Source: a virus. From it: DNA of 64,000 nucleotides. This document shows, one piece after another, positions 23,380 through 46,122 of this stretch. The notes below the pieces were generated by a model. That model was not told the origin of the DNA and did no database searches. It saw nothing but the letters and a program-made list of their open reading frames with translations. Position numbers and translations under genes: made by a program. The first letter of the stretch is position 1. The number at the start of each line of letters is the position of its first letter. The stretch spans positions 1 through 64,000 of the IMG/VR virus record IMGVR_UViG_3300020021_000003. The stretch is one strand, 5' to 3'.

Positions 23380-24417
23380 TTAGTTAGTAGAGGCGATAAC
23401 AACAGAGATATCTGTGATTAGTCCTAGGCCCCAGATCGCGTACCAAGCAAGTGCGTGCTCACGGCCGAAGTCCAGAATACCACCATCACGAAGTTCAACA
23501 GGAAGTGAGATAGCGTGACCGAATGCATTGTCTCCGATAAAGATAGAGTCGTATCGGTTGGCTGTTCCGTTACCAGTTGTGATTCCATTAGTGGTTGTGT
23601 CTGTAGTCCAACCAGTTCCAGCTCCACCGACAACGTTTCTTACCTGAGTTGTCTCGATAAATACCACGTCATTCAAGCGCCCGATTTCTCCAAGCATGAA
23701 ATTACCTGGAGCGGCATACTTAGTCATTTCGATGAACTGTGGATCGTTTCTCAACCAACGGGACTGGTGAGGGTGTACGAAACATACGTAAGTCTCGCCC
23801 AAACGAGGTACATTCTTCGTAGCCAAAGTCTCGACTGCATCGTACACAGTCTGGGAGCTTAGGTTGAAGTCACCAGTCATAGAAGCATTGGATGTTCCAG
23901 GAGTACCGATGTTGTAGAAGACCTGGTTGTTGATAGCGCCAGTGTCCTTCTCGTAACCGAATAGCTGAGAGGAAGCCTGTAGAAGAGTGTTACGTGCACT
24001 GACATCTAGGTATGTTGCCATGTTACGGCCTAGTAGACGAGAAGCAGATGCCATAACATCGTCGAAGGAAGCGTTAAGAAGTAGCTCAGAAACGGCTACA
24101 GCGTATCCCTGCTCAGCAACTGTGATAGAGAACTGAGAAGCTGTTAGAGGGTTAGTCTGGATACGAATACCTTCAACAAGCTGAGTAGCCTGTCCAAGGT
24201 TGTTGTAACGCATGAAGTTAATTGTCAATCCAGGTGTAACACCGAGCTCTGTCTTTTTTACAGCGAACTGCTCGAAGCGCAGGATTGGCATCGCCTGAAA
24301 CAAGATCTCCTTTGACCATACGGTCTGGATTGCAGGAGAAAGCGCAGAGCTTCCACCTGGATAAGATGTTGGAGCACCAGAGATATTCGGTGTGCCCGTA
24401 ATTGCGGAACCAGCCAT
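23380..24417 (-). CDS. Major capsid protein, 345 aa
   Basis: HK97-fold type sequence with the pattern VWSKEILFQAMPILRFEQFAVKKTELGVTPGLTINFMRY at the N-arm and SITVAEQGYAVAVSELLLNASFDDVM in the core, as in many actinophage and N4 gp56-like capsids. It follows scaffold and precedes a terminator. No protease gene is seen nearby, so the N-terminus may stay uncleaved. Confidence 0.92.
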   Translation of the reverse strand: MAGSAITGTPNISGAPTSYPGGSSALSPAIQTVWSKEILFQAMPILRFEQFAVKKTELGVTPGLTINFMRYNNLGQATQLVEGIRIQTNPLTASQFSITVAEQGYAVAVSELLLNASFDDVMASASRLLGRNMATYLDVSARNTLLQASSQLFGYEKDTGAINNQVFYNIGTPGTSNASMTGDFNLSSQTVYDAVETLATKNVPRLGETYVCFVHPHQSRWLRNDPQFIEMTKYAAPGNFMLGEIGRLNDVVFIETTQVRNVVGGAGTGWTTDTTTNGITTGNGTANRYDSIFIGDNAFGHAISLPVELRDGGILDFGREHALAWYAIWGLGLITDISVVIASTN

Positions 24418-25348: not shown

Positions 25349-27076
25349 CTAATTGTCATCTGTTGGTAGCTGTCGAGAACCTAGCTTGGTTCCGTAAGCA
25401 TTGACGACTGCCTCACGCAAGGCATTCATTGATCCCGCACCATCGAGATCTTGGAGGTTCAGATCCTTTGAACCCATTGGTCCTGGTCCCTTTGCGGGAG
25501 ATGCCTTAGGGTTGCCCTCAGCATCACTAGGAGGAACTATGGACGGATCAGGAATGACACTGCCATCAGGCTGTGGAATCATTCCGGTGAGTTCTGTGAT
25601 TACAGAATCGATCTGTGTTCTCAGCATACGTAGAGCACCATCACGAACAGCATCATCGTGCAGTTCATCGTAGATCTCTTGTAGCTTGTCATCTGGGAAC
25701 TGCTCTCCCAGATCCTTGAGTGCGCCGCGACGGCTTTCCAGATCCATATTCATCATTCCCATGATCTCGTTGAGCTTGATCAAACGGTCAACAGGAAGTG
25801 GTGAAGGCCAGTCGATGTCACTGAAGTAAAGAAGAGGGTCAGAGGGATCAACCATGAACGGCTGACCTTCCTTGATAATTCCCTCAGTATCAGGATTGTA
25901 AAGGGTTGCTTCAGGCTCAAAGATAAATAGAGTCTTAAGTGCTAGCTCATTTATCTTTTGTAGTCCCTTACCATATTGTATCTTCTTTAGCTCAAACTTT
26001 TGCATTAGAGGTAAGAATTGAATAGAAAGAGCTACACCAGAAGTATTACTGATTGGCTGTGATTGTCCAAGAGCTGACTCTGGAACACCAGTCATTTCAT
26101 GCATAGCAACCTTGAGCATGTTGAGTGCGTCGAGCGGACCTTCTAGTTCCACACCATTTTCCAGGTTGTGGATATCTACGTCCTTGTTACCGATGGACCA
26201 CACGCGGTTGGTTCCCTTCTCAAGCTGAGAAGGCTTTGCTCCGATAACAACGGTGATAGGAGCTGCATGGTAATTGACTATGTCAGCAATATCTGTAGCA
26301 GTTTCATTATACTGTCTATTCAGTGTAATGAGGTTTTGTACATCTGATAATCCCCAAGGAGAACCAGAAGCCGGGTGATTTGCAATGTGGACGATAGGGA
26401 TAACACCTAGCGCGTTAGGACGCTCATCGATCAGCTCATCGTTTACATACTCACGGATAATGTCTGATCGGATTAATTCAGTATAGGTGTATACAGATCT
26501 GGTTCCCTCTGTGTTGGTTCCCCAGAAACGGTACTTCAACTTGAACTCAAGAAGTCTGTCACGGTCGTGTGGATGCCACGTAGGGAAGCAGTAGGCAGAG
26601 TTGAGAGGAAGGATACGAACTCTTCCTGCATGATTGTTTCCCGCGTCATCGATCCAAGAAGATTCGTAAGCTACCTTAACGAAACAATCTCCAGAGACAC
26701 CGCCCTGCTGACCCATTTCCCAAGTGACGGCCTTCATGTTGTTGTCCTGTTGCCAAACTCTCTTGAGCAGGGCAGGGATAATGTGGTCGTACTCCTTGAT
26801 GGTGTCAAAGGCGATGCCTCTGGAGAAACAGAAGTTATTGATATAGTCGGCGAATGCCTGGACATAGTTGAAGGTAAGCTGAGGATCTCCGAACTCGCGG
26901 CGAACTCCCCAGTGATGCCCTAAGTACCAAGCCCAGTATTCTGCGTAGCGATTTAGGCGGGGGCCGTGCATTTCAAATTCTTCATCAGATAATTCAACTA
27001 GACCTAGCGGTGATACTGCTATCGCTAGGTCGGATGATGCGGCTCTCATTGATGGAGAGTAGAAAGTCATTGACAT
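25349..27076 (-). CDS. Portal protein, 575 aa
   Basis: Portal family features: PRLNRYAEYWAWYLGHHW near the N-terminus, the segment NGVELEGPLDALNMLKVAMHEMTGVPESALG, and a Pro/Gly-rich C-tail. Order terminase-portal-scaffold-capsid is conserved. It forms the dodecameric DNA entry ring. Confidence 0.93.
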   Translation of the reverse strand: MSMTFYSPSMRAASSDLAIAVSPLGLVELSDEEFEMHGPRLNRYAEYWAWYLGHHWGVRREFGDPQLTFNYVQAFADYINNFCFSRGIAFDTIKEYDHIIPALLKRVWQQDNNMKAVTWEMGQQGGVSGDCFVKVAYESSWIDDAGNNHAGRVRILPLNSAYCFPTWHPHDRDRLLEFKLKYRFWGTNTEGTRSVYTYTELIRSDIIREYVNDELIDERPNALGVIPIVHIANHPASGSPWGLSDVQNLITLNRQYNETATDIADIVNYHAAPITVVIGAKPSQLEKGTNRVWSIGNKDVDIHNLENGVELEGPLDALNMLKVAMHEMTGVPESALGQSQPISNTSGVALSIQFLPLMQKFELKKIQYGKGLQKINELALKTLFIFEPEATLYNPDTEGIIKEGQPFMVDPSDPLLYFSDIDWPSPLPVDRLIKLNEIMGMMNMDLESRRGALKDLGEQFPDDKLQEIYDELHDDAVRDGALRMLRTQIDSVITELTGMIPQPDGSVIPDPSIVPPSDAEGNPKASPAKGPGPMGSKDLNLQDLDGAGSMNALREAVVNAYGTKLGSRQLPTDDN

Positions 27077-28020: not shown

Positions 28021-28296
28021 TTACTTGGTGGCTGTCTTGTCTACGACAGTATCGACAACGTCTACAGCCTGGTCTACTACGTCCACGTCGGATCGTAGAG
28101 TATCCGCAATAGCTTCTACTTTGGTAGCCGCGTCATGCAGGTTGGTTGCAACAGCTTCCTTTACCACGTCCTCTAGAGGAGCCTGGTGGATATGCTGAAA
28201 TACAGCCTCCAGCTTTGTAACGAGAACCTTGAAGTCTCCCTCAAGACTGTTCTTCAACTGGTTCAACTTTGCTTCTGTATCGACTATTACATTCAT
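28021..28296 (-). CDS. Hypothetical helical acidic protein, 91 aa
   Basis: Almost entirely helical by composition, with a heptad-like C-terminus rich in Val and Asp (VDVVDQAVDVVDTVVDK). Immediately downstream of the Acb2-like gene, probably translated with it. Function not recognised. Confidence 0.6.
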   Translation of the reverse strand: MNVIVDTEAKLNQLKNSLEGDFKVLVTKLEAVFQHIHQAPLEDVVKEAVATNLHDAATKVEAIADTLRSDVDVVDQAVDVVDTVVDKTATK

Positions 28297-28304: not shown

Positions 28305-28511
28305 TTAGTTTCTAGCTACTGACGCATTAGCGGAGTAGACAACGCTTTCTAGATGTGTGATAGCAAGAGACTTGTCTCTGCCCTCAGGAAGTACTGTATT
28401 CAACCAGAGTGCATACTCTCTTGCCTTGCCGCGAATCTCTTCGTATAGAGCAGCCGTCTCTGGTGTAGACGCATGAAATGTAAATCGATTAGTAATGTCA
28501 GTGATATCCAT
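28305..28511 (-). CDS. acb2: Acb2/Tad1-hairpin family anti-CBASS protein, 68 aa
   Basis: Size and sequence match the Acb2 (Vs.4) family of phage cyclic-nucleotide sponges: NRFTFH near the N-terminus, a first helix with YEEIRGKAREYA, the signature EGRDKSLAITHLE, and the C-terminal SANASVARN (family form WANAAIARN). Acb2 hexamers bind cGAMP and cyclic trinucleotides and block CBASS, and some members act against Thoeris. It is encoded inside the head operon between small unknown genes. The position usually held by Trp before ANA is Ser here, which could change ligand preference. Confidence 0.88.
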   Translation of the reverse strand: MDITDITNRFTFHASTPETAALYEEIRGKAREYALWLNTVLPEGRDKSLAITHLESVVYSANASVARN

Positions 28512-28531
28512 TTAGTATTCCTTGTTAGTGA

Positions 28532-28969
28532 TTAGTCAGATACGATTGCTGAATGCAGTCTTTCGTAGCGTCCGCCAGAGCGATTGACCTGCTCGAAGCG
28601 ACGGGTAGCATTGGTGTCTACATTCACGCCGTGCATGAACTCACCAGTCATGTCAACAGAGTCGAGCCATGCGGCAGAACCTGCGTGAGCACGCTGCTTC
28701 ATTGTCTCTTCTGGAGACTTCTCGAATACATTCATGTTGTGGTTAGGGCGACCTGGTGCAGTTCTGTAGCCCTGCATTGCTCCTAGAGTAAAGTCGCTAG
28801 GAACGTCAGTGTCAGTTGCAAGACCTTCCTCGAAACGAAGTGGTCCGCGACGCTCCGTGTTGGCTGCCATCTTACCCTCGTAATTGATAGCACCACGGTC
28901 TCTCTCTGCAAATCTTGGAGTTGGGGCCAGATTTACTGCGCGCCCAGCTTCCTGATACATATCAGCCAT
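28532..28969 (-). CDS. Hypothetical virion-region protein, 145 aa
   Basis: Follows terminase. Polar, charged sequence (RFAERDRGAINYEGKMAANTERRGPLRFEEG) with few hydrophobic residues. Position and composition suggest a structural or internal head protein. No family recognised. Confidence 0.6.
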   Translation of the reverse strand: MADMYQEAGRAVNLAPTPRFAERDRGAINYEGKMAANTERRGPLRFEEGLATDTDVPSDFTLGAMQGYRTAPGRPNHNMNVFEKSPEETMKQRAHAGSAAWLDSVDMTGEFMHGVNVDTNATRRFEQVNRSGGRYERLHSAIVSD

Positions 28970-29012: not shown

Positions 29013-30590
29013 TTAACTTCGTCTGCGATCGTAGAAAGGATTATTGCTCTGTTCTATTTCCTCGGTAACACTGACTGGAATAACACTCAGAGCAATAGCA
29101 AGAGAGTCACAATAGTCATCATGAGCGTTGGCTTCCTTAGGAGCTTCCGCTAACATATAGGGTCCTTCGAATTTCACCTGAAGGTCTGACATCTGCTGAA
29201 TGAAGTTTCTGTACGTACGCAGTGAACGTGTCTTAGCATGTGCTGGCCAGGTGAGCTTGGCTCGATCCAGCATTTCACGAAGGTACTTCCAACGAGATGA
29301 CTGCTCTGCTCTTTGGGAAGAGACATCAAGAATCTCTATATGCGGTAGAAGAACTCTGAGACGGGATATAACTACATCTCCCACCCCACCTTCATCTACA
29401 CCGATTGCCCATACATTATATCTGGATACGAACTCTACTATCCTGTGATACTGTTCTTCCCAGCCAAGACCCTGTAGATCCATCCAATTGAGAATACGAG
29501 TATCGTAGTAGCCGAATTCATCTCTGCGTTCCCAGTCCACGAATACAGCAGTGACAATAGTACTGTCGATCTTTCGTGCCGGGTCTATACCTATGACCAC
29601 AGGAGTCATGTAGTAGTTCTTCTCTGTCTGCATCGTTCTGTCCCCGAGTTCCTCAAGACGCTCGGAGGTTGTGAACATTCCCTGTTCCAGAAGCCACATG
29701 AGACGGTAGGACAGCTTGAATTCATCAGAGTCATAGCCCATACGAAGCATGTCACCAGCTACGTGCTTCTCGTATCTCTTGTTCCACTTTCCTACCTCAC
29801 GGTAGTCAGCTTCGAAGTGATTGGATCTAGCGCCGCGCTTTGTGGCATTTCTCTTGTTGTGCTGGATCTCTCGGTGGAATACACCCTTCTCGTAAGTAGG
29901 TGTACCTGTCATGACAAAGGTTCCACGAGTGGATGCGAGCATAGGACGGATGGACTTGTCCACTACTCGCTGGTCTGCCACCTGTGCTTCGTCAAGGAGG
30001 GCAATATGATATGTCTTACCTTCAATAGAAGCTCTGGGGTGAGCCGTCTGACGACGCACGATAGAACCGCACTTTTCCAGACGTAGTTCTGATCCTCTGC
30101 CCTTTACTCGTTCATCGATCTCAGGGTCAAGAAGGATAGCCTGTGCTCTCTCGCTGGTAATCATAGAGACGATACGGGAGAACAGAGTCTTTGCCATGTC
30201 GTCTACTGGTGCGAAAGCTCCAACCCATACGCCTTCCTTGAAATCGTCCAGCCATTCATTGAACGGTTCTACCTTGGCCAGACGGGGAAGCATGATCATC
30301 AGAGTGGCAACCGTGGCTGCCACTGTCTCAGTCTTACCGCTCTGACGGCTGAAGAGGGCTGTTATAGTGGCTCCGTCATTGATGATGACCGATTCCATCA
30401 ACCGCGCCGCAAAGGGTCTCTGGTAGCCGTACAGCGGGTGTCCTGACAGCTTGTCCGCGAACATCAGCAAGCGTTCGACAATCGCATCAATGAATGCCTG
30501 TGAATGCGGGTCGATATCTATCTTGGTCGTAGCAAGAGCTTCCCGTTCCTCAGAACTCAGCTCATCTAAGTCTTCCTCATACATGTTCAT
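29013..30590 (-). CDS. terL: Terminase large subunit, 525 aa
   Basis: Walker A-like SRQSGKT at residues 81-87, Walker B with catalytic pair in ALLDEAQ (Asp200-Glu201), motif TGTPTYEKG, and a nuclease domain starting at IGIDPAR (Asp336) with VDEGGVGD further on. It packages DNA into the prohead with ATP. No small-subunit gene is recognised nearby. SD TTAGGAG precedes the ATG. Confidence 0.95.
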   Translation of the reverse strand: MNMYEEDLDELSSEEREALATTKIDIDPHSQAFIDAIVERLLMFADKLSGHPLYGYQRPFAARLMESVIINDGATITALFSRQSGKTETVAATVATLMIMLPRLAKVEPFNEWLDDFKEGVWVGAFAPVDDMAKTLFSRIVSMITSERAQAILLDPEIDERVKGRGSELRLEKCGSIVRRQTAHPRASIEGKTYHIALLDEAQVADQRVVDKSIRPMLASTRGTFVMTGTPTYEKGVFHREIQHNKRNATKRGARSNHFEADYREVGKWNKRYEKHVAGDMLRMGYDSDEFKLSYRLMWLLEQGMFTTSERLEELGDRTMQTEKNYYMTPVVIGIDPARKIDSTIVTAVFVDWERRDEFGYYDTRILNWMDLQGLGWEEQYHRIVEFVSRYNVWAIGVDEGGVGDVVISRLRVLLPHIEILDVSSQRAEQSSRWKYLREMLDRAKLTWPAHAKTRSLRTYRNFIQQMSDLQVKFEGPYMLAEAPKEANAHDDYCDSLAIALSVIPVSVTEEIEQSNNPFYDRRRS

Positions 30591-36506: not shown

Positions 36507-36509
36507 ACG

Positions 36510-36592
36510 TGACAGTAGAGGGATTCGAACCCCCAAGTCCCGAAGAAATGAGATTTACAGTCTCAGGAGCCAGCCAATTGCTCAATACTGCC
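36510..36592 (-). tRNA. tRNA-Tyr (GUA)
   Basis: Acceptor GGCAGTA with TACTGTC; anticodon loop CTGTAAA; long variable arm as expected for Tyr; T loop TTCGAAT. Confidence 0.92.
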
Positions 36593-36698
36593 ATTAACAT
36601 CACAGCCTATCCTTCGCCTTTCGTCTTCTAGGACGTCGCGCAAGGCATGTTATGTACTCCTGAGCGGAGGATTTTTTACTAATACTCAGGACCGTTCG

Positions 36699-36769
36699 AG
36701 GGAAGACGGAGAATCGAACTCCGATAACTGGGGCCACATCCCAGTGCTTTGCCGTTAAGCTATCAACCC
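36699..36769 (-). tRNA. tRNA-His (GUG), weak acceptor stem
   Basis: Anticodon loop ATGTGGC on a perfect CTGGG/CCCAG stem; T arm intact. Acceptor GGGTTGA with TCTTCCC has two U-U oppositions, unusual and possibly a sign of decay. Confidence 0.7.
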
Positions 36770-36806
36770 AAAGACTAGTCTACACTAGCCGTCTTGCTTT
36801 GTAAAG

Positions 36807-36878
36807 TACGAACACCAGGAATTGAACTTAGAACTAGATTTTATCAGAATCTCGTGATAACCGTTTCACCATGCTCGC
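36807..36878 (-). tRNA. tRNA-Ile (GAU)
   Basis: Anticodon loop CTGATAA on AGATT/AATCT; acceptor GCGAGCA with TGTTCGT; one mismatch in the T stem. Confidence 0.85.
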
Positions 36879-36941
36879 ATTAATACTAGTACCGGTTTTT
36901 GTCGACGTGTTGTTTGAGAACCGGGTACACAAAACTCAAGG

Positions 36942-37014
36942 TAGGACATGAAGGAATTGAACCTTCTATCGTCAGGATATAAGCCTGCTGCATCGACCGT
37001 TATGCTAATGTCCC
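36942..37014 (-). tRNA. tRNA-Ile (UAU)
   Basis: Anticodon loop CTTATAT gives UAU, reading AUA directly; top pair of the anticodon stem is mismatched. Acceptor GGGACAT with ATGTCCT. Bacteria usually read AUA with a lysidine-modified CAU tRNA. Confidence 0.82.
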
Positions 37015-37123
37015 ATTAATGAGGTTGCTATTCCGGAGCCAAATACCTTTTACGCGCGATTAAGTATAAGACTCTTGCACGATATTACACCCATCCAACC
37101 CCCAATGGGAACACGTGACTAAG

Positions 37124-37207
37124 CGGAAAGTGTGGAGAATCGAACCCACTAGGGCATTAACCCCTACTACATTTCCAATGTAGCTGCTCACCGGTTGCAT
37201 ACTTTCC
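37124..37207 (-). tRNA. tRNA-Ser (GGA)
   Basis: Anticodon loop TTGGAAA; long variable arm; acceptor GGAAAGT with ACTTTCC; discriminator G. Confidence 0.92.
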
Positions 37208-37391
37208 ATAAGGCCCTTCCCATTTGAGCATCGCCGAGAGGCTTGGGAAGGGGTCGATTAAGCACTATACTAACATCTCCAGAGCGTTCGTGCAACCGAT
37301 CACTTCTCTGGTCTCAGACTAGCATTTTTCCTGAACATGGCAAAACCGGCTGCACGTGGTTGTCAGGCAGGCGAGTGAATCACCTGTGCTG

Positions 37392-37476
37392 CGGATGATG
37401 TAGGATTTGAACCCACGGAGCTGTTACACTCTCCAGTTTTCAAGACTGGTGCAATCGGCCGCTCTGCCAATCATCC
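37392..37476 (-). tRNA. tRNA-Ser (UGA)
   Basis: Anticodon loop CTTGAAA on CCAGT/ACTGG; long variable arm; acceptor GGATGAT with ATCATCC; discriminator G. Confidence 0.93.
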
Positions 37477-37569
37477 ATGCCATACTAGCTTTGTTCTATG
37501 ACGTCAGCCTATCAGCCGAAACTGGATTCTGGTCAAAAGCAGATCTACATATGGTTGAACTGCTCGGCG

Positions 37570-37656
37570 CGGAGATAACAGGATTCGAACCTGCGGAGGT
37601 TTTACCCTCTCTTCATTAGCAGTGAAGTGCCTTAAGCCGTACTCAGCCACATCTCC
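37570..37656 (-). tRNA. tRNA-Ser (GCU)
   Basis: Anticodon loop CTGCTAA on CTTCA/TGAAG; long variable arm; acceptor GGAGATG with TATCTCC; discriminator G. Confidence 0.93.
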
Positions 37657-37668
37657 ATTATTACTACG

Positions 37669-37744
37669 AGCGCATAGTGGGAATCGAACCCCTTGTAACG
37701 GCTTTGCAGGCCATCTCCATCCCAGACGAATTAACTCTACGCGC
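37669..37744 (-). tRNA. tRNA-Cys (GCA)
   Basis: Anticodon loop CTGCAAA; acceptor GCGCGTA with TATGCGC; discriminator U as usual for Cys. Confidence 0.92.
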
Positions 37745-37767
37745 ATAAAGGATTCTGTAGAATCCAG

Positions 37768-37847
37768 TGGAACTGCTGGGATTCGAACCCAGGTGCTGAT
37801 AACTTCCGACTTGCGGTTTTTACTACCAGACGAAACCAACCAGCCCC
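37768..37847 (-). tRNA. tRNA-like gene, anticodon arm unresolved
   Basis: Acceptor GGGGCTG pairs fully with CAGTTCC (with G-U), and the T arm CTGGG-TTCGAAT-CCCAG is perfect; length 80 nt. No 7-nt anticodon loop with U33 on a 5-bp stem can be placed in the middle (candidate hairpins GGTTT/AAACC and CCG/CGG). Either decayed or unusually folded. Confidence 0.45.
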
Positions 37848-37848
37848 G

Positions 37849-37917
37849 CTATATTACACACAGGACAATTACCAGCAGAACTGCTAGTACAAGCCACAGT
37901 GCTTCAAGTGCGTTCAT
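37849..37917 (-). CDS. Single-pass membrane micropeptide, 22 aa
   Basis: Between two tRNAs. ATG at 37917 has a near-perfect SD (AAGGAGG, 5-nt spacing) and the product MNALEALWLVLAVLLVIVLCVI is one hydrophobic helix. A second 22-codon frame (MERYSLTQEQEAW...) ends in a TGA overlapping this ATG (ATGA), which suggests a coupled leader peptide, though its own ribosome site is poorly spaced. Confidence 0.6.
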   Translation of the reverse strand: MNALEALWLVLAVLLVIVLCVI

Positions 37918-38007
37918 ATTATCCTCCTTGTAGATGCAGGGTACCAAGCCTCCTGCTCCTGGGTCAACGAATAACGTTCCATCTCCGTAGAAATCCCAGC
38001 CCTTACG

Positions 38008-38078
38008 TACCCGCTGAGGGAATCGAACCCCCGTCTTTGGTGTGTAAAACCAAGGCCCTCCCATTAGACGAAGCGGGC
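38008..38078 (-). tRNA. tRNA-Val (UAC)
   Basis: Anticodon loop TTTACAC on TTGGT/ACCAA; acceptor GCCCGCT with AGCGGGT; discriminator A. Confidence 0.92.
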
Positions 38079-38101
38079 AATACCCTTTCGGGCGATACTG
38101 C

Positions 38102-38287
38102 TTAAAACAATCCTGTACCTTTTAGCATATTAGCATATAGAATTTCTATTTCATTTGTATCTAGCCACTGGATCTTTACTATTCGTGATCCTTGCCAGTC
38201 GTACTCGTCTTCCAGCACACGAGCCTTGCGGTTACGTGGACCGAATGCTCCGTCACCTTCACGGAGAGGTGTACGTCTACCAAACAC
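38102..38287 (-). CDS. Hypothetical protein, 61 aa
   Basis: GTG start at 38287 with CAAGGAGATAAT upstream, one base after the stop of the 48-aa gene. Charged sequence with a beta-like end (GSRIVKIQWLDTNEIEILY). An upstream Met would overlap the neighbour heavily and lacks a ribosome site. Function unknown. Confidence 0.6.
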   Translation of the reverse strand: MFGRRTPLREGDGAFGPRNRKARVLEDEYDWQGSRIVKIQWLDTNEIEILYANMLKGTGLF

Positions 38288-38288
38288 A

Positions 38289-38435
38289 TTATCTCCTTGT
38301 AAGCTGTGCTTCAGTAAATAATCTGCCATTGACTTTGTACTTGCATAGTCCATGCATGCATTCACGAGCAGTTATCTTACCTTCACCACCCTGATAGGAA
38401 ACATGGTCTCCGATATTGAATTTATATCTGGACAC
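38289..38435 (-). CDS. Small KOW/SH3-like protein, 48 aa
   Basis: GTG start at 38435 preceded by CAGGAGG. Pattern YKFNIGDHVSYQGGEGKITAREC looks like a KOW/SH3 barrel (GDxVxxxxGxGxI). It starts just downstream of a tRNA-like gene. Function unknown. Confidence 0.62.
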   Translation of the reverse strand: MSRYKFNIGDHVSYQGGEGKITARECMHGLCKYKVNGRLFTEAQLTRR

Positions 38436-38456
38436 TATACCTCCTGAGTAGTTTGG

Positions 38457-38532
38457 TGGTATCCCCTGAATTTGAATCAGGAACTTCGTGCTTATGGCCC
38501 GATCGGTTAATAGATCTACTGACAATCTACCC
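38457..38532 (-). tRNA. tRNA-like gene, possibly Met (CAU) remnant
   Basis: T arm CCTGA-TTCAAAT-TCAGG is perfect and GGATACC-A-CCA follows, so a 3' CCA may be encoded. The acceptor has two mismatches. The anticodon region reads GGGCCATAAGCAC, like a Met loop (CTCATAA) lacking U33. Confidence 0.4.
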
Positions 38533-38623
38533 AACTAGTACACAAACCTTCACTGTCGCTACCACGGCCGATCCACGACGGTTCGTCAGTTTATGCTTTT
38601 CACAGCTTACCTACAGAATACCG

Positions 38624-38696
38624 TACCCCTGACTGGATTCGAACCAGCAATTTTCGGCTTAGAAGGCCGTTGAGTTGTCCCTTACTCTACAGAGGC
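38624..38696 (-). tRNA. tRNA-Arg (UCU)
   Basis: Anticodon loop CTTCTAA on CGGC/GCCG; acceptor GCCTCTG with CAGGGGT; T arm GCTGG-TTCGAAT-CCAGT. Confidence 0.9.
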
Positions 38697-38783
38697 ATAC
38701 GTAACAGACCTATTGTATCCGCTTCTCCTTCAGTCTGCTACTTCCAATTCGGGGAAGGAGCTGACGGCCCCAAATTTAAAACT

Positions 38784-39221
38784 TTAATCCCACCAGCCGT
38801 ACCAATCGTACTTGGAGTCAGTATAGATGTCAACTTCTTCCCAGTCTCCGTCCAGCAAAGCTTCTCTGATCTGCTGTCTCACTTTAGAGCGGATAGCTCC
38901 GTTTGTCAACTGCTTGATATCCTTGTTGCTTCGGATGTTCGGGTAGTACTCAAGCCAGTGACAGCAGTGCTTATCGTCTCGGTATCTTGAATCGTTAGGA
39001 CTTTCGGGAAGGTCCAGAGTACAGTCTACATACTCAGACCAGCTATTGTAAATACCAGCCATGTACCAGACTACTTCGTTGCCGTAGCCGTCCTTACGCA
39101 TGATAGGCTCTTCACCGATTCGTTCCCTATGGGTAACCAAGTGATGATGGTACGCATATCGGTCCATCTTAGGATCATTCTTGAGAACCCAATAAGGACG
39201 GTCCTTGAGTGTGCGAGACAT
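38784..39221 (-). CDS. Hypothetical protein, 145 aa
   Basis: His/Tyr/Trp-rich (RYAYHHHLVTHRERIG, then KHCCHWLEYY) with a helical, charged C-terminus. Embedded in the tRNA array. The pattern might hold a metal site, but no family is recognised. Confidence 0.7.
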   Translation of the reverse strand: MSRTLKDRPYWVLKNDPKMDRYAYHHHLVTHRERIGEEPIMRKDGYGNEVVWYMAGIYNSWSEYVDCTLDLPESPNDSRYRDDKHCCHWLEYYPNIRSNKDIKQLTNGAIRSKVRQQIREALLDGDWEEVDIYTDSKYDWYGWWD

Positions 39222-39253
39222 ACAAACCTCCGATAGTGCTAGGAGTTCTTACG

Positions 39254-39300
39254 TGTCGGTAGAGGGATTCGAACCCCCGACTTCCTCACCAACTGAGTAG
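39254..39300 (-). pseudogene. tRNA remnant without anticodon arm
   Basis: Intact T arm (GGGGG-TTCGAAT-CCCTC) and 3' acceptor TACCGAC with discriminator A, preceded by a D-arm-like CTACTCAGTTGGTGAG but no anticodon arm. Its acceptor complement GTCGGTA is found 0.56 kb away at 39849-39855, on the far side of the HNH gene. Confidence 0.6.
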
Positions 39301-39312
39301 ACGCTTTTAACG

Positions 39313-39388
39313 TACCCCTGACTGGATTCGAACCAGCATGTGTCCATTAACCTTTCAACGCGTTCGTAGCGCGAGGGTATACAGAGGC
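39313..39388 (-). pseudogene. tRNA-like element overlapping HNH 3' end
   Basis: Acceptor GCCTCTG/CAGGGGT and the T arm are the same as in tRNA-Arg(UCU) at 38624, and the length is 76 nt, but the middle is the last 42 bp of the HNH gene. A hairpin CGCG-CTACGAA-CGCG with an Arg ACG-type loop takes the place of the D arm. Probably non-functional. Confidence 0.5.
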
Positions 39389-39811
39389 AGGACCAGTCCA
39401 CCATCCAAACTGCTCAAAGGTCTTTCTCCTGTGACAGTTTGCACATAGTACCTGGCATTTATCAATCTCAGCTTGAACAGTCTCAATCTTAGAGACATTC
39501 TTGGCTGCTTCACTAATGTTGAACGATTTGATAGAAGGATCTAGATGATCAAACTCTAGCATACGTGGATCAGTTTCACCACAGTGAACACAAGGATGAT
39601 CAAGTAAGTAGCTCCAGACGTACTCTCGTATTATCTGTATATATCTTAGATCGTTCTTTCTAGCCTTGTCAAGATAGACTTGCTTGTTAGCTGTGTAATG
39701 ATCCCTGTTGTATTGGTTGTGGCAGGGCTTACACATTGAGCTTTTCGAAGCAAACTCACTTAATGGCTTTTCGATACTGCACTTGCTACATGTCTTCATG
39801 CTATTAATCAT
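39347..39811 (-). CDS. HNH endonuclease, 154 aa
   Basis: Zinc-finger N-terminus (CSKCSIEKPLSEF, then CKPCHNQYNRDHY) and HNH core: CVHCGETDPRMLEFDHLDP and CQVLCANCHRRKT. Typical small phage homing endonuclease. It is flanked by the 9-bp direct repeat CGTTCGTAG (39361-39369 and 39816-39824) and by separated halves of a tRNA-Arg-like gene. Confidence 0.9.
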   Translation of the reverse strand: MINSMKTCSKCSIEKPLSEFASKSSMCKPCHNQYNRDHYTANKQVYLDKARKNDLRYIQIIREYVWSYLLDHPCVHCGETDPRMLEFDHLDPSIKSFNISEAAKNVSKIETVQAEIDKCQVLCANCHRRKTFEQFGWWTGPASVYPRATNALKG

Positions 39812-39817
39812 AGCACG

Positions 39818-39855
39818 TTCGTAGGCAAGTGCTCTATCCGCTGAGCTATACCGAC
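39818..39855 (-). pseudogene. 5' half of tRNA-Arg (ACG)
   Basis: Acceptor 5' strand GTCGGTA, canonical D arm (GCTCAGCGGATAGAGC), anticodon 5' stem CTTGC and loop CTACGAA. The sequence then runs into the HNH gene, whose ATG lies 7 nt further. Its 3' half appears to be at 39254-39300. Confidence 0.65.
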
Positions 39856-39877
39856 AGAGCCCCGAAGGGCTTGATAC

Positions 39878-40162
39878 TTAGTATTGAATTTGTTCTCCGT
39901 TGATATAGAGAACATATCCCTTGGGAAGCCCAATGTCAACTCGTCCAGCCCGTTGCTTTACAGTGACGCCACCAGCCTGAGTAATGCTGATGCTGCTGTT
40001 GTCACTGAATACATTATTGTAACTTCCAGCCCCAGCAGTACGATTACCCGTTCCTCTTACCTTAACACTACTATTTGTTCCAATAGCGTTGCCAGTGATA
40101 TTCCCACCAGCTTGAACGATCGTGCTGTTCTTGCCGCCACGAGCCCTCTGAAAAATCTGCAC
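39878..40162 (-). CDS. Hypothetical Gly/Asn-rich protein, 94 aa
   Basis: Composed of short beta-repeat-like units (STIVQAGGNITGN, SISITQAGGVTVKQ) ending VLYINGEQIQY. Could form a beta-solenoid. It lies directly after the NlpC/P60-like gene in the array. No family recognised. Confidence 0.6.
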   Translation of the reverse strand: MQIFQRARGGKNSTIVQAGGNITGNAIGTNSSVKVRGTGNRTAGAGSYNNVFSDNSSISITQAGGVTVKQRAGRVDIGLPKGYVLYINGEQIQY

Positions 40163-40169
40163 TGTGCTC

Positions 40170-40655
40170 CTATTCAGTGAACGGAATCAACTGTCCTGGT
40201 GTTACTAGGCTTGGCAGTCTGTCATCAGTGAAGAGATGAACACCGGCCATGCTGTACACGTAGTCCACAATCTGAGAACAGATCATGTGCTTTGATTTCA
40301 CTACTCTAGCAGTCAAGAAGGGCACTGGCAAGTGGAACCTCTTGGCCGCAATAGCAAAGTAGTCCAGGAAGCTGTATGGGACGCCCTTGAGAGCTGCTGC
40401 GTAGTCTATGATGTCCTTGCGCTGTTCGATCGCCAGGGGCACCGTAGAGACCCGTACAGAGGCATACTTGGAGGCATCAGAGACGATCGCACCACCAGGC
40501 ATAGCTTCAAGGATCTTTCCGTTGTACATGTAGATGAAAGCGTGCTCATAGTTCTTGAAGCCGTCTCCGTTAAGCCATTGGCCTAATCGGATGAGAAAGC
40601 CTACTCCACCAGGAATACTTGTTAAGCCGAAATCTCCTGGCTGGGCGTCTCTCAT
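40170..40655 (-). CDS. Permuted NlpC/P60-like (YiiX/LRAT-type) protein, 161 aa
   Basis: Begins RDAQPGDFGLTSIPG, with a His in NYEHAFIYM (His38) and a downstream catalytic-type Cys in MICSQIVDYVY (Cys126): the His-before-Cys order of permuted papain-like folds (YiiX/YebB). Such enzymes cleave amide bonds in peptidoglycan or lipids. It is too small and lacks a wall-binding domain for a typical endolysin. Confidence 0.78.
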   Translation of the reverse strand: MRDAQPGDFGLTSIPGGVGFLIRLGQWLNGDGFKNYEHAFIYMYNGKILEAMPGGAIVSDASKYASVRVSTVPLAIEQRKDIIDYAAALKGVPYSFLDYFAIAAKRFHLPVPFLTARVVKSKHMICSQIVDYVYSMAGVHLFTDDRLPSLVTPGQLIPFTE

Positions 40656-40672
40656 ATCTCTCCTCGTTAAAG

Positions 40673-40745
40673 TGCTGGCAGCAGGGATCGAACCCGCAGA
40701 ATTTCGATTAAAAGTCGAATACCGTAGCCATTTGGTTATACCAGC
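40673..40745 (-). tRNA. tRNA-Lys (UUU)
   Basis: Anticodon loop CTTTTAA on TTCGA/TCGAA; acceptor GCTGGTA with TGCCAGC; discriminator A. Confidence 0.93.
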
Positions 40746-40771
40746 ATACAGCCCTTTCGGGCCGGTCGAAC

Positions 40772-41245
40772 TTACTTGCCTGTACCAGCCTGTGCAGTGA
40801 TGGTAGGAACGCCACCCTGTCCATCAGGGACATAGATAACAGTGTTGTTCTTTCCAGACTGTGCAATAGCCTGTAGCGCCTGAATCTGCTCCCATTGAAG
40901 ATACATGGGGGTCAGGGTCTTGGCAATCTCATCCTGTGCCCTACGGACACCTACAGCCTGCTGGAAACGAATGTCAGCCTGCTGTTCAGTAACCTGAAGC
41001 TGTTGCTTCTGGTTGGAAATTTCGATCTCAGTCACTTGGACCTTGTTGTTCGCGGCGATAATCGCGTTCTTAGCAGCGTTGTTTGCCTTGATGGTAGCAT
41101 TCTGTGCATTAGTATTCGCATTCTTAGTACTCTGTGAACGGTTGAAATCACTGCAACCAGCAACACCACCAGTCAAAATACCACCTGCAACCACAACGAC
41201 GACTAGCCAACTAGCAGCAACAGCAAGGGGATTGGACTGTGCCAT
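40772..41245 (-). CDS. Lipoprotein with coiled coil, SPFH-like C-terminus, 157 aa
   Basis: N-terminal hydrophobic segment with a lipobox (GVAGC, Cys31), then a repetitive Asn/Ala/Lys helical region (NAKNAIIAANNK) and a C-terminus TPMYLQWEQIQALQAIA...NNTVIYVPDG that resembles the tail of SPFH/band-7 proteins in other phages. Likely anchored outside the membrane; could act in superinfection exclusion or lysis timing, unproven. Confidence 0.72.
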   Translation of the reverse strand: MAQSNPLAVAASWLVVVVVAGGILTGGVAGCSDFNRSQSTKNANTNAQNATIKANNAAKNAIIAANNKVQVTEIEISNQKQQLQVTEQQADIRFQQAVGVRRAQDEIAKTLTPMYLQWEQIQALQAIAQSGKNNTVIYVPDGQGGVPTITAQAGTGK

Positions 41246-41282
41246 ATTCTTTTTGCCTCCGAATTAGTACTCCGTTATAACG

Positions 41283-41353
41283 AGCCTCACCAGGGAATCG
41301 GACCCTGTTCCACGCCTTACGAAAGCGTTATTCTACCAGTGAACTAATGAGGC
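41283..41353 (-). tRNA. tRNA-Thr (CGU)
   Basis: Anticodon loop TTCGTAA on ACGCT/GGCGT; acceptor GCCTCAT with GTGAGGC; discriminator U. Confidence 0.9.
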
Positions 41354-41399
41354 AGAGCCGGGCGGGTACCATGCCTGGTATGCATTCCCTAACCCAACG

Positions 41400-41472
41400 A
41401 GCCTTATCTCGGAGTCGAACCGAGTCTCTCTCCGTACCAAGGAGAAGTGCTAACCATAGTCACTAATAAGGC
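41400..41472 (-). tRNA. tRNA-Thr (GGU)
   Basis: Anticodon loop TTGGTAC on TCTCC/GGAGA; acceptor GCCTTAT with ATAAGGC; discriminator U. Confidence 0.92.
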
Positions 41473-41485
41473 ATTACTACTTACG

Positions 41486-41556
41486 TACTCCTCCGGGGTA
41501 TCGAACCCCGTTCCGCTGGGTAAGAGCCAGCTACATCACCTTAATGCTTGAGGAGC
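41486..41556 (-). tRNA. tRNA-Lys (CUU)
   Basis: Anticodon loop CTCTTAC on GCTGG/CCAGC; acceptor GCTCCTC with GAGGAGT; T arm CGGGG/CCCCG. Confidence 0.92.
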
Positions 41557-41559
41557 ATA

Positions 41560-41582
41560 AGCCTTACTGTTTTAGTAAGGCT
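41560..41582. terminator. Hairpin after 81-aa gene, weak terminator
   Basis: Perfect 9-bp stem AGCCTTACT/AGTAAGGCT with loop GTTTT, 7 bp past the stop codon of the next gene. No T-run follows on the minus strand, so it may be a processing site instead. Confidence 0.45.
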
Positions 41583-41588
41583 GCCAAA

Positions 41589-41834
41589 CTATGAGAATCC
41601 TTTACCGTTCATGTGCTTATCGCAGAAGGAGTTACCCTCAGAAGCTTCGTCCTTACATGTCCGCTTCTCACAGATGTAAGGAGTAGAACCAGCAGTCCAC
41701 TTCTCCCGATCTTCCGCAGTCCAGCCCTTTGGATCAGGAGGACCAAGTTTGATGCCGTGAATATTTGTCTTTGACTTCCCCGGCTTAGCAGGTGGCTCTG
41801 CACCTGCTGGGTACTTCGGTGTCCAGAATCCCAT
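41589..41834 (-). CDS. Small zinc-finger-like protein, 81 aa
   Basis: Pro/Lys-rich N-terminal half and a C-terminal CEKRTC...FCDKHM pattern (C-x4-C, C-x2-H) that could bind zinc. SD AGGAGG precedes the ATG. Function unknown. Confidence 0.62.
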   Translation of the reverse strand: MGFWTPKYPAGAEPPAKPGKSKTNIHGIKLGPPDPKGWTAEDREKWTAGSTPYICEKRTCKDEASEGNSFCDKHMNGKGFS

Positions 41835-41865
41835 AGTTTTGCCTCCTATGTCAATGAATAAAACG

Positions 41866-41935
41866 TGGAGCTAGTCGGAATCGAACCGACTGCAACGACT
41901 TTGCAAAAGTAGTCCGCTACCTCAGCGTTAGCCCC
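41866..41935 (-). tRNA. tRNA-Ala (UGC)
   Basis: Anticodon loop TTTGCAA, one mismatch in the anticodon stem (CTACT/AGTCG); acceptor GGGGCTA with TAGCTCC; discriminator A. The acceptor lacks the usual G3-U70 position but has a G-U at pair 3. Confidence 0.85.
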
Positions 41936-42057
41936 ATTGTAGGTGGTGTCCCCGTTATCACTGCACGACGACTCCAAGATAAGCATTAGCCCAGTGATAC
42001 TCAGCATATCTTATCCCAGAAGGCATCCACATACTCGTTGCCCTTCGGTGTTCTTAT

Positions 42058-42087
42058 ATCTTAGCAGATCAACTAGTGGCTAGTCAA
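42058..42087 (-). promoter_or_regulatory. Promoter inside tRNA array
   Basis: TTGACT (42087-42082), 18 bp, TAAGAT (42063-42058) on the minus strand, just past the terminator at 42105-42142 and upstream of tRNA-Ala. Confidence 0.65.
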
Positions 42088-42104
42088 CCTGTGGTACGTT
42101 ATAA

Positions 42105-42142
42105 GGGTAAAAATAATCTCCACCAGTATTTCTACGGTGGAG
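42105..42142 (-). terminator. Terminator inside tRNA array
   Basis: 7-bp stem CTCCACC/GGTGGAG (42118-42124 with 42136-42142) followed on the minus strand by ATTATTTTTACCC. Follows tRNA-Asn. Confidence 0.7.
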
Positions 42143-42152
42143 AGGATTAAGG

Positions 42153-42224
42153 CTCCCACAGCTGGATTCGAACCAACAACCTTGGAGTTAACAGCTCCCT
42201 GCTCTGCCATTGAGCTATGCGGGA
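42153..42224 (-). tRNA. tRNA-Asn (GUU)
   Basis: Anticodon loop CTGTTAA on GGAG/CTCC; acceptor TCCCGCA with TGTGGGA; discriminator G. Confidence 0.93.
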
Positions 42225-42272
42225 AAAACCTGAACCACAAGGGAACAGGTGGGTTATAACTTACTACTTAAC

Positions 42273-42302
42273 ATGATACTCGAAGTTGTTTTCTCATGTC
42301 AA
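42273..42302 (-). promoter_or_regulatory. Promoter for tRNA-Asn segment
   Basis: Consensus TTGACA (42302-42297), 18 bp, TATCAT (42278-42273) on the minus strand, about 50 bp before tRNA-Asn. Confidence 0.75.
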
Positions 42303-42308
42303 GCAAAG

Positions 42309-42377
42309 CACGCCCCGTAGGAATCGAACCCACGCTTAGAGGTTTGGAATCTCTAGTACTACCATTATACGAGAGGC
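42309..42377 (-). tRNA. tRNA-Trp (CCA)
   Basis: Anticodon loop TTCCAAA on AGAGA/CCTCT (last pair A-C); acceptor GCCTCTC with GGGGCGT, one C-C mismatch; discriminator G; short D arm. Confidence 0.78.
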
Positions 42378-42423
42378 ATAAGTTGGTTCCGTTGTTCATG
42401 CCCAACGGTTTCCTAAAAGCTCG

Positions 42424-42497
42424 TACGGGTGGAGGGACTCGAACCCCCGACGCATGGTTTCTAAGACCACGTCCTCTAGCCACTGGGATACACCCGC
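42424..42497 (-). tRNA. tRNA-Leu (UAG), short variable loop
   Basis: Anticodon loop CTTAGAA on GTGGT/ACCAT; acceptor GCGGGTG with CACCCGT. The variable region is only about 5 nt, whereas bacterial tRNA-Leu has a long arm. Confidence 0.85.
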
Positions 42498-42562
42498 ATA
42501 CTGGACTACCTACGATTAAGTTGTATACCTGGAGCTTATCACACGTTACAACGGTTGTCCAG

Positions 42563-42635
42563 TAGTTCTAGTCGGACTCGAACCGACACTGTTTCGATTT
42601 TAAGTCGAATGCCTCTGCCATTGGGCTATAGAACC
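42563..42635 (-). tRNA. tRNA-Leu (UAA), short variable loop
   Basis: Anticodon loop CTTAAAA on TTCGA/TCGAA; acceptor GGTTCTA with TAGAACT; variable loop about 5 nt, again class I in shape. Confidence 0.85.
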
Positions 42636-42687
42636 ATAGATCTACTAGGAGTGTTCTAGTTCTGTGTTTATACTTCCGTTCAATACG

Positions 42688-42761
42688 TACTCCAGGTCGG
42701 ACTTGAACCGACACTAGCACAGTTTTTGAGACTGTGTCCTCTGCCATTGGGATACTGGAGC
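42688..42761 (-). tRNA. tRNA-Leu (CAA), short variable loop
   Basis: Anticodon loop CTCAAAA on ACAGT/ACTGT; acceptor GCTCCAG with CTGGAGT; variable loop about 6 nt. Confidence 0.85.
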
Positions 42762-42840
42762 ATAAGGTGAGGGTCTGGAACCATTGTCCAGTCTCACCAC
42801 ACAGGTCTTTAGCTTTTAGTCGGGTCAACGCTTTCCACTT

Positions 42841-42870
42841 ACTGTACCCCGGAAGTACCATCCACGTCAA
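42841..42870 (-). promoter_or_regulatory. Putative promoter for Leu tRNAs
   Basis: TTGACG (42870-42865), 18 bp, TACAGT (42846-42841) on the minus strand. It lies in the gene-free gap 42762-43000 between tRNA-Thr(UGU) and tRNA-Leu(CAA). A GGTGAG/CTCACC hairpin (about 42767-42802) follows. Confidence 0.5.
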
Positions 42871-42999
42871 GCTGTCCGTGCCAGGAGTTACTGTGCAGAA
42901 CCTAAAAACTATTCGATGGGAAAGCACGTTCGTAGCATATTACAGGGGCGGTAAAACCGATTACAATCGCTAGCAGATTACCCAGACCATCGAATAAAG

Positions 43000-43074
43000 A
43001 GCCCCATGTCGGATTCGAACCGACGACCTGCGCTTTACAAGAGCGCTGCTCTGACCGGACTGAGCTAACAGGGC
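43000..43074 (-). tRNA. tRNA-Thr (UGU)
   Basis: Anticodon loop CTTGTAA on GCGCT/AGCGC; acceptor GCCCTGT with ATGGGGC; discriminator U. Confidence 0.92.
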
Positions 43075-43139
43075 AATCCCACTATATCCTATTACCCAGC
43101 GCAAGTGGTCAACGCCAGAACCCGTATTAGGGGGTTATA

Positions 43140-43442
43140 TTAGGCAGTACCAGTTGCGGTAATTGCCCAGTCTGTGTTCAGGTTGACTGTGAAGTCAGTT
43201 GGTAGGTTGTAAACGCTACTGTTGTTCAACTGGAATGTTACCAGACCATCTCCAGCGCCGGTACCAGGTGGTAGAGGAGCTGCGAAGATTGCACGAACAG
43301 TAGTAGGATAACCTACACCAGAACCAGAAGCAGGAGTTGGGTAAACGTACCCGTGTCCGTCAGCACAAAGGACACCTACGACCTGAGTACCCACTGCTGG
43401 AGTTGTAGCTGTGAACTTAGCTACAGAATATGTAAAAGCCAT
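43140..43442 (-). CDS. Hypothetical small beta-rich protein, 100 aa
   Basis: SD AGGAG before the ATG. Val/Thr/Gly-rich with VRAIFAAPLPPGTG and a regular end (TVNLNTDWAITATGTA), similar in style to the small head-region proteins at 27 kb, so possibly a capsid decoration. It lies alone in the tRNA array. Confidence 0.65.
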   Translation of the reverse strand: MAFTYSVAKFTATTPAVGTQVVGVLCADGHGYVYPTPASGSGVGYPTTVRAIFAAPLPPGTGAGDGLVTFQLNNSSVYNLPTDFTVNLNTDWAITATGTA

Positions 43443-43519
43443 TTGTTCTCCTAGGAGTTTAGAAATTGCCGCTATAGCAACTTAATTCTACCACCCTTAG
43501 AAGATATTAAATTGTGGAG

Positions 43520-43591
43520 CACCCCCAGTGAGAATTGAACTCACTCCTCAGGCTTGAAAGGCCAGTGTACTAACCAATATACTATGGGGAC
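43520..43591 (-). tRNA. tRNA-Glu (UUC)
   Basis: Anticodon loop CTTTCAA; acceptor GTCCCCA with TGGGGGT; one mismatch in the anticodon stem; discriminator G. Confidence 0.9.
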
Positions 43592-43793
43592 AAAAGCCCT
43601 GCCAGTTCCTGAGAACGACAGGGAGCAATCTCAGGTAGCGAGCCTGAGTATAAAACAGTCCTTGGGGCTATCCATCCCTTAACTGCACTGAAAAGTCGAA
43701 CATAGGCAGCGTATTCCAATTTTCGCTAACACAACCCACTACAACCCCTCCAGGGCATGGCCATTGCTTTGGAACCTATGCAGATAGCTAACG
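43592..43793. other. Gene-free spacer with small hairpins
   Basis: Holds CCCTG/CAGGG (about 43597-43618) and CTCAGG/CCTGAG (about 43632-43650) hairpins but no tRNA or convincing frame. Possibly processing or pausing sites between the two tRNA-Glu genes. Confidence 0.4.
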
Positions 43794-43867
43794 TACTCCA
43801 GACGGGATTCGAACCCGCAATCTTCACCTTGAGAGGGTGACGAGATAACCGCTTACTCTACTGGAGC
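43794..43867 (-). tRNA. tRNA-Glu (CUC)
   Basis: Anticodon loop CTCTCAA on TCACC/GGTGA; acceptor GCTCCAG with CTGGAGT; discriminator A. Confidence 0.93.
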
Positions 43868-43985
43868 ATACACCAGGGCCGTTTCCATGGCAACCCTGGT
43901 TTCACCTGTGCTCCCCGTTAGGATAGGCTAGGGTCTTCCCGCCCTAGTAGGTATCACAGCATCCATGGCGCTATGAGATTCAAGT

Positions 43986-44126
43986 CTAGAATTTCTTGGG
44001 ACGCTTTTCCATTTCAGCCCGAATCTTCTTTAGTTCGAGCTTAGCTTGTAGCTTGGCTTTCACTCGGGAAATGGGACTATCTAGGATAGCCTGCCATTTC
44101 TTCTCGTAAATCTTCAGATCACTCAT
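43986..44126 (-). CDS. Small basic helical protein, 46 aa
   Basis: ATG at 44126, stop 43986. Lys/Arg/Glu-rich, almost all helix (VKAKLQAKLELKKIRAEMEKRPKK). No clear ribosome site, so it might be leaderless or a shadow. The next 100 bp to tRNA-Glu(CUC) hold only hairpins. Confidence 0.5.
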   Translation of the reverse strand: MSDLKIYEKKWQAILDSPISRVKAKLQAKLELKKIRAEMEKRPKKF

Positions 44127-44148
44127 GGGTTTGTATGTGTAGTCCACG

Positions 44149-44220
44149 TCAACCCAACGGGAGTCGAACCCGCTCTAACACCGTGACAGGGTGTCGTGCG
44201 CACCGGTACACTATGGATCG
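44149..44220 (-). tRNA. tRNA-Asp (GUC)
   Basis: Anticodon loop CTGTCAC on ACACC/GGTGT; acceptor CGATCCA with TGGGTTG (two G-U); discriminator A. Confidence 0.88.
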
Positions 44221-44255
44221 AATACGAGAAGTTTACCTGCTCTCGCTCAGGATGT

Positions 44256-44567
44256 CTAGTACTTAGGCCACACAACATCTGGTGTTACTGAAGTAACCGT
44301 ACCATTCTTGATGACTGCTCGCTCGACGTCCAAGCTGTCCTCACCTTCACGCTCGATTACCAAGTAGTTGTCTGGATAGAGCGTAGCAAGGTCTTGAAGG
44401 TCTGTCAACCAGTAATACCACTTGGTAGCGTCATAACCCTGGATACCATTACCGTAGTCTTCCCAACCAGGATGACCCCAGTCCTTCTCATCTCCTAAAT
44501 CATTTAAGACATTGAGAATATCGGGAATATCAGTATCGATAACTTCGAATGTTGAATAGTAACCCAT
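44256..44567 (-). CDS. Hypothetical acidic protein, 103 aa
   Basis: ATG at 44567 with GGAGGC upstream; a longer frame lacks a ribosome site. Asp/Glu/Trp-rich with an ordered alpha/beta look (TFEVIDTDIPDILNVL, then YLVIEREGEDSL). Function unknown. Confidence 0.7.
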   Translation of the reverse strand: MGYYSTFEVIDTDIPDILNVLNDLGDEKDWGHPGWEDYGNGIQGYDATKWYYWLTDLQDLATLYPDNYLVIEREGEDSLDVERAVIKNGTVTSVTPDVVWPKY

Positions 44568-44592
44568 AGTTGCCTCCATAGATTGTAGGATT

Positions 44593-44685
44593 TTCGTAGA
44601 GTGGGACTTGAACCCACATCCGTTACTACCCAGTCGGGTGCACCTTTACTAGAAGGTCTCGTCTGCCAATTGCTAATATCTACGA
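44593..44685 (-). tRNA. Class II tRNA, anticodon uncertain
   Basis: Perfect acceptor TCGTAGA/TCTACGA, T arm GTGGG/CCCAC and a long variable arm (ACCC/GGGT). The anticodon stem ACCTT/AAGGT is perfect but leaves a 6-nt loop, CTAGTA. UAG (Leu) or a shifted reading are both possible. Confidence 0.65.
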
Positions 44686-44690
44686 AAAAG

Positions 44691-44763
44691 CTGGAGATGT
44701 AGGATTCGAACCTACACTTTCCTGATTCAAAGTCAGGTGGGCTGCCAATTACCCCAATCTCCA
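44691..44763 (-). tRNA. tRNA-Gln (UUG)
   Basis: Anticodon loop CTTTGAA on CCTGA/TCAGG; acceptor TGGAGAT with ATCTCCA; discriminator G. Confidence 0.93.
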
Positions 44764-44994
44764 ATTAATTACTTAGTTTACACAGGTGCGGTCGGGTTTA
44801 CCCCGATCCACCGGCCTTCATCCACATCCTCCGTAGTCTGCGACTACTCCTCAACTAAGCAAGTGTTTGACGTGTGTGGCTCTACCTTAAAGGGTAGCCC
44901 CAGCTCTTTCCTTATCTTATCGCCACTTTCCACACTTTTACGTACGTTATTATGTGTGTTCCATATTGACTACTTCCGGAATTCTGTACGTCAG

Positions 44995-45065
44995 CTCCCC
45001 GACCTGGATTCGAACCAAGTCTAGCGGCTTCAGAGACCGCTGTGCTGCCGTTACACCATCGGGGA
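44995..45065 (-). tRNA. tRNA-Gln (CUG)
   Basis: Anticodon loop CTCTGAA on GCGGT/GCCGC; acceptor TCCCCGA with TCGGGGA; discriminator G. The 230-bp gap before tRNA-Gln(UUG) shows no other gene. Confidence 0.93.
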
Positions 45066-45122
45066 ATAAAGCGGTATTTATTTGGTTTTTCACCAAGAGG
45101 CGAACCGCAGAACCTCATTGCG

Positions 45123-45193
45123 TACCGTATGCCGGAATCGGACCGGCGAACTCTGTTTGGAAGACAGATATGTTACCTCTACATCAATACGGC
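45123..45193 (-). tRNA. tRNA-Gly (UCC)
   Basis: Anticodon loop CTTCCAA on TCTGT/ACAGA; acceptor GCCGTAT with ATACGGT; discriminator A. Confidence 0.92.
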
Positions 45194-45275
45194 ATTGGGA
45201 AGGGCTAACCTAACTTCACATTAGGCTCTTTTACTTTACGCACCCAACGATAACGCAAAACCCCAAAAGGGTAGG

Positions 45276-45392: not shown

Positions 45393-45424
45393 TGAATTGC
45401 AGACCTAAGACTCGATCTGATACA

Positions 45425-46023: not shown

Positions 46024-46045
46024 AAGCATTCTACCATCCTGCGAG

Positions 46046-46117: not shown

Positions 46118-46122
46118 ATTAA

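Follow-up and report, generated by a model that had tools for sequence, protein, structure and literature searches.

A gene for a 68-aa protein lies among the head genes of a virus represented here by the window, the 64,000-nucleotide stretch of DNA that we analyzed, which is part of a 101-kb record. A preliminary description, drawn from the letters of the sequence, had named this protein a cyclic-nucleotide sponge of the Acb2 type. The locus raises the question of whether a counter-defense protein is encoded inside a head operon and, if so, which signals it would bind.

Family membership and predicted fold

The proposed open reading frame is present on the minus strand, begins with ATG, and contains each of the signature motifs ascribed to it (NRFTFH, EGRDKSLAITHLE, and ANASVARN). 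Comparison with its two closest relatives gave a dN/dS of approximately 0.05; the gene is thus under purifying selection and far from a chance ORF. Its features are as follows.

28305–28511, minus strand: Acb2/Tad1-hairpin protein, 68 aa, predicted nucleotide-signal sponge (PF24729, phrog_1454, AlphaFold2 [AF2] model, dN/dS)
28485–28505, minus strand: N-terminal short helix, residues 3–9 (AF2 model, DSSP)
28392–28463, minus strand: helix 1 of the hairpin, residues 17–40, with invariant R27 and A34 (AF2 model, conservation)
28311–28379, minus strand: helix 2 of the hairpin, residues 45–67 (AF2 model, conservation)
28519–28523, minus strand: AAGGA, a Shine-Dalgarno-like element 7 nt upstream of the ATG (sequence)

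Membership in the Acb2/Tad1 hairpin family was borne out by HMM search, in which PF24729 (Acb2_Tad1_hairpin) matched the protein over the whole profile (positions 1–58) at 59.7 bits (E 3.3e-16), against a curated cut-off of 27 bits; T4 Acb2 scores 71.4 bits with this model. The 101-kb record contains no PF24729 match other than the 68-aa protein, and all 14 control genomes lacked one. PHROG 1454 matched as well (E 4e-25), and searches with PADLOC and NCBIfam returned no match. The protein is a genuine member of the family. In pairwise comparison, it shows very little sequence similarity to the Acb2 proteins that have been tested, with hhalign against T4 Acb2 yielding a probability of 41% over 20 columns. 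Among solved structures, the best chain in a profile search of the PDB was 9ptq, "Acb2 homolog 43" (E 1.5e-5), a 76-aa protein with six chains in the entry, whose alignment to our protein is limited to residues 19–59; a literature search found no publication on this entry.

The AF2 monomer, built from an alignment with 53 homologs, is confident (pLDDT 96.7) and consists of a short N-terminal helix (residues 3–9) and two long antiparallel helices (17–40 and 45–67), with no strands. The Acb2 protomer has been described with this same arrangement of helices (PMC12043709, PMC10419184), and the Acb2-like helical fold anticipated for this protein is thus what the model gives. All top matches to the model in BFVD are Acb2/Tad1-hairpin proteins. 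A Foldseek search of the PDB placed the model on T4 Vs.4/Acb2 chains at TM 0.65–0.67 by query length, with non-significant E values and nothing below E 0.001; little fold information resides in a hairpin of two helices. By analogy with the family, the protein would be a homo-oligomer, probably hexameric.

Candidate pocket residues and ligands

By the same analogy, the 68-aa protein would bind cGAMP and cyclic trinucleotides and disarm CBASS, and we compared its residues with those of known members, with residue roles based on PMC12657218 and reviews. PF24729 positions 1–58 correspond to residues 7–83 of T4 Vs.4/Acb2 (PDB 7uq2; an 88-aa protein whose hairpin loop is longer) and to residues 11–67 of the 68-aa protein, and this common register places T4 Y8 on F12 and T4 K23 on R27. 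In T4 Acb2, the mutation Y8A disrupts cyclic-dinucleotide binding (PMC12657218). The F12 position is F or Y in 51 of the 53 homologs and R27 is invariant among them, so that the Acb2 pocket pair, an aromatic residue at T4 Y8 and a basic one 15 residues later, is found here with the T4 spacing. We take K26 of p26 Acb2, from a P. aeruginosa phage (93 aa; PDB 8h2j, 8ixz), to be the basic pocket residue 15 after the aromatic in that protein.

Other T4 residues are replaced. The counterpart of F82, the residue that stacks against the base of the bound ligand (PMC12657218), is A66, leaving the base-stacking Phe absent; R79 corresponds to A63. The subfamily profile gave no direct sequence match to p26 Acb2. 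An alignment puts Ala at the F82 position of p26 Acb2 also, and we treat F82 as a T4 trait rather than a defining one. The subfamily has a near-invariant set of N8, R9, F10, H13, R27, A34, P42, E46 and, conserved in helix 2 of the 68-aa protein, R45, A50, T52, L54, N62, A63, A66, and R67; N62, R67, H13, and R45 are among those that are the subfamily's own. E46 is Asp in the window protein.

A serine precedes ANA where Trp is usual (it occurs in 43 of the 53 homologs in the alignment), as had been noticed at the outset. The accompanying suggestion that this substitution could alter ligand choice did not hold up. The position varies among S, W, H, and Q in near relatives, with Gln at the equivalent position 60 in the homolog from Streptomyces phage BRock, and p26 Acb2 has Ala at the positions of both T4 Trp76 and Phe82. 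These two T4 residues are therefore dispensable for function, the Ser is uninformative, and Trp-to-Ser is ruled out as a marker of ligand choice. The same Ser, together with the sequence distance from tested members, could be read as the mark of a degenerate, non-binding relative retained only through operon structure. We consider this extremely improbable given the strong purifying selection, the retention of every family-invariant residue, and the confident, full-length AF2 model.

A second alternative concerns the ligand: the protein might be a sponge mainly for the cyclic ADP-ribose signals of Thoeris rather than for CBASS nucleotides, combining a Tad1-like ligand with an Acb2-like, hairpin-only frame. 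In profile searches, its helix-2 motif is closer to that of Tad1 (SRENACALTHVEEALMWMN) than to that of T4 Acb2, and it has in common with Tad1 (PDB 7uav, 8smd, 8kbb–8kbh) the pattern R-E-x-x-x-A-L-T-H-x-E-E-x-x-M-W-x-N. Genomic context offers further hints, in that one homolog has Tad3 some 0.5 kb away and others lie near NAD-salvage genes (Octobien14) or a PnuC-like transporter (Jasmine), but these are single cases. Moreover, Tad1 couples an N-terminal antiparallel beta-sheet, which helps form its gcADPR pocket (PMC12043709), to two C-terminal helices, whereas the 68-aa protein is a hairpin only and strandless in the model. The Tad1 entries are also weak matches (E 0.13), below 9ptq in the same search. 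On balance, a sponge mainly for Thoeris signals is unlikely.

Place in the head operon and absence from two relatives

The genes that surround the hairpin gene, all on the minus strand, include the following.

29013–30590, minus strand: terminase large subunit, TerL (PF17289, PF03237; 79% to BRock TerL)
28532–28969, minus strand: 145-aa protein, function unassigned, between TerL and the hairpin gene (tblastn synteny)
28021–28296, minus strand: 91-aa protein, function unassigned (directly 3' of the 145-aa gene in relatives that lack the hairpin gene)
25349–27076, minus strand: portal protein (PF05133, phrog_64)
23380–24417, minus strand: major capsid protein (phrog_1357, PF25209)

Read along the minus strand, the order is TerL, the 145-aa protein, the hairpin protein, four small unassigned genes, portal, a scaffold-like protein, and capsid. 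With TerL, portal, and major capsid as flanking genes, in an order kept in relatives, the original placement of the gene inside the head operon is correct. TerL is 79% identical to that of BRock (Borockvirus), in which gp154 is a homolog of the hairpin protein (55% identity over 68 aa) and likewise lies between TerL and portal; we conclude that the window virus is a BRock-like phage. UniProt lists gp154 (A0A1J0GW61) as an Acb2/Tad1 hairpin domain-containing protein, and its GenBank record gives hypothetical protein only; it is among the BFVD matches described above. The 145-aa protein follows the terminase in BRock-like phages and is 56–85% identical among them. It has no Pfam or PHROG match and might be a packaging or head gene. 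Elsewhere in the window, 30 predicted tRNA genes, which together serve most amino acids, form an array at positions 36509–46569 (minus strand).

Conservation of this place was assessed by scanning, with the family HMM, 30 loci that had been recruited by their terminase and that hold the 145-aa gene. In 28 of these, the hairpin gene lies downstream of the 145-aa gene. In the other two, L091 and L108, it is missing, and the stop codon of the 145-aa gene directly abuts the start of the 91-aa gene (L091:2158–2171, L108:8013–8019); a PF24729 protein is also lacking from the rest of the 14.6-kb record of L091 and of the 110-kb record of L108. Three more distant loci (L062, L067, and L069), with terminases about 59–60% identical, keep the order TerL, 145-aa gene, hairpin, portal. 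The gene is thus probably ancestral in the BRock-like group and was later lost in L091 and L108.

Such a conserved place invites the explanation that the protein serves in the head or in packaging, perhaps as a connector, a plug, or an accessory to the terminase, and has the hairpin fold without sponge function. In almost every BRock-like relative, the gene sits between TerL and portal, and homologs in unrelated phages often adjoin portal, capsid, or terminase genes. Its clean absence from two relatives, however, with the remaining head operon in place, marks it as an accessory gene: to vanish without damage to the operon is unexpected for a required head part and expected for a counter-defense gene. 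Some homologs have replication, lysis, or tRNA genes as neighbors, PHROG gives the family no structural class, and the Pfam model is common to verified sponges. We therefore regard a purely structural role as highly unlikely.

We instead consider it likely that the 68-aa protein is a functional sponge of the hairpin family, made together with head proteins, that binds cyclic nucleotide signals without cleaving them. In this proposal, the protein would be expressed late, alongside the head proteins, and would bind the cyclic di- and trinucleotides of CBASS, and possibly the cyclic ADP-ribose of Thoeris, leaving them intact, so that host death effectors would be held off during head assembly. 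Published findings on head proteins bear on this proposal: a capsid protein sets off Thoeris (PMC11312562), the TIR NADase SpbK is triggered by a portal protein (PMC11984713), and capsid mutations arise when a phage lacking acb2 escapes CBASS (PMC10419184). Production of a sponge together with such proteins would be sensible timing.

The hairpin family in other genomes

Homologs were found in 348 phage records (E 0.01), chiefly from phages of Mycobacterium, Paenibacillus, Gordonia, and Streptomyces, and in four plasmid records. An alignment-based scan of genome contigs yielded 33 bacterial loci, mostly in Actinomycetota and Bacillota; a scan of genome contigs with the single protein as query gave no match. 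Relatives in mycobacteriophages Xandras and BigBubba (PMC11953737), Microbacterium phage Statler (PMC13348362), and Curtobacterium phage Sunfish are annotated as cyclic-oligonucleotide-sequestering. As relatives already go by Acb2/Tad1-type names in UniProt and among some actinophage annotators, the kind is known, and the window protein is another member of a widespread sponge family, fairly ordinary and mildly notable for its place.

A scan of neighboring genes, picked for size and closeness, found homologs adjoining or near portal (Gordonia phage Chidiebere; L022, L040, L045, L050, L052, L055, and L061), capsid (L042), and terminase genes (ZenTime222, Jasmine, Alex44; L089). Others lie by replication or nucleotide genes (Anthony, Scottie; L039, L060, L071, L073, and L088) or by a holin (Scarif, FidgetOrca). 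A Pfam tally of 99 neighbor proteins contained only single-member families. That homologs recur next to genes for portal, capsid, or terminase hints at a sponge produced alongside the head proteins to which CBASS or Thoeris responds.

A stronger version of this idea holds that the hairpin-only subfamily (NRFxF/YH...R...PxxREKSLAxTxLE...NAxxAR) forms a distinct sponge class with a pocket of its own, located beside head genes and made or packaged with head proteins. We give this only a small chance of being right. If true, several unrelated lineages would place a sponge by genes for portal, capsid, or terminase. The sponge family has been described from phages of E. coli and Pseudomonas, and the largest reservoir visible in our searches is in actinophages and Paenibacillus phages, whose members the papers we found do not appear to have tested. 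The conserved place in the head operon, together with relatives that naturally lack the gene, provides a tractable system, and opens the question of whether counter-defense is timed to match the structural proteins that immunity senses.

Several individual neighborhoods merit description. L015:6725–7135 encodes Tad3 (PF25185, E 1.7e-27), an inhibitor of type I Thoeris, at a distance of about 0.5 kb from a homolog, and the two possibly form an anti-defense cluster. In Gordonia phage Octobien14 (L007:287–3785), genes for a PRPP transferase, a nicotinate ribosyltransferase, and a nucleotidyl transferase lie about 1.2 kb upstream of the homolog, with an HTH gene and tRNA genes between, a set that hints at restoration of NAD in parallel with a sponge. 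In Jasmine, the homolog is beside the PnuC-like transporter. Finally, GenBank annotates the homologs of Paenibacillus phages Heath, Halcyone, Scottie, and Vegas as (putative) phosphomannomutase, which, given a length of about 70 aa, looks like a misannotation.
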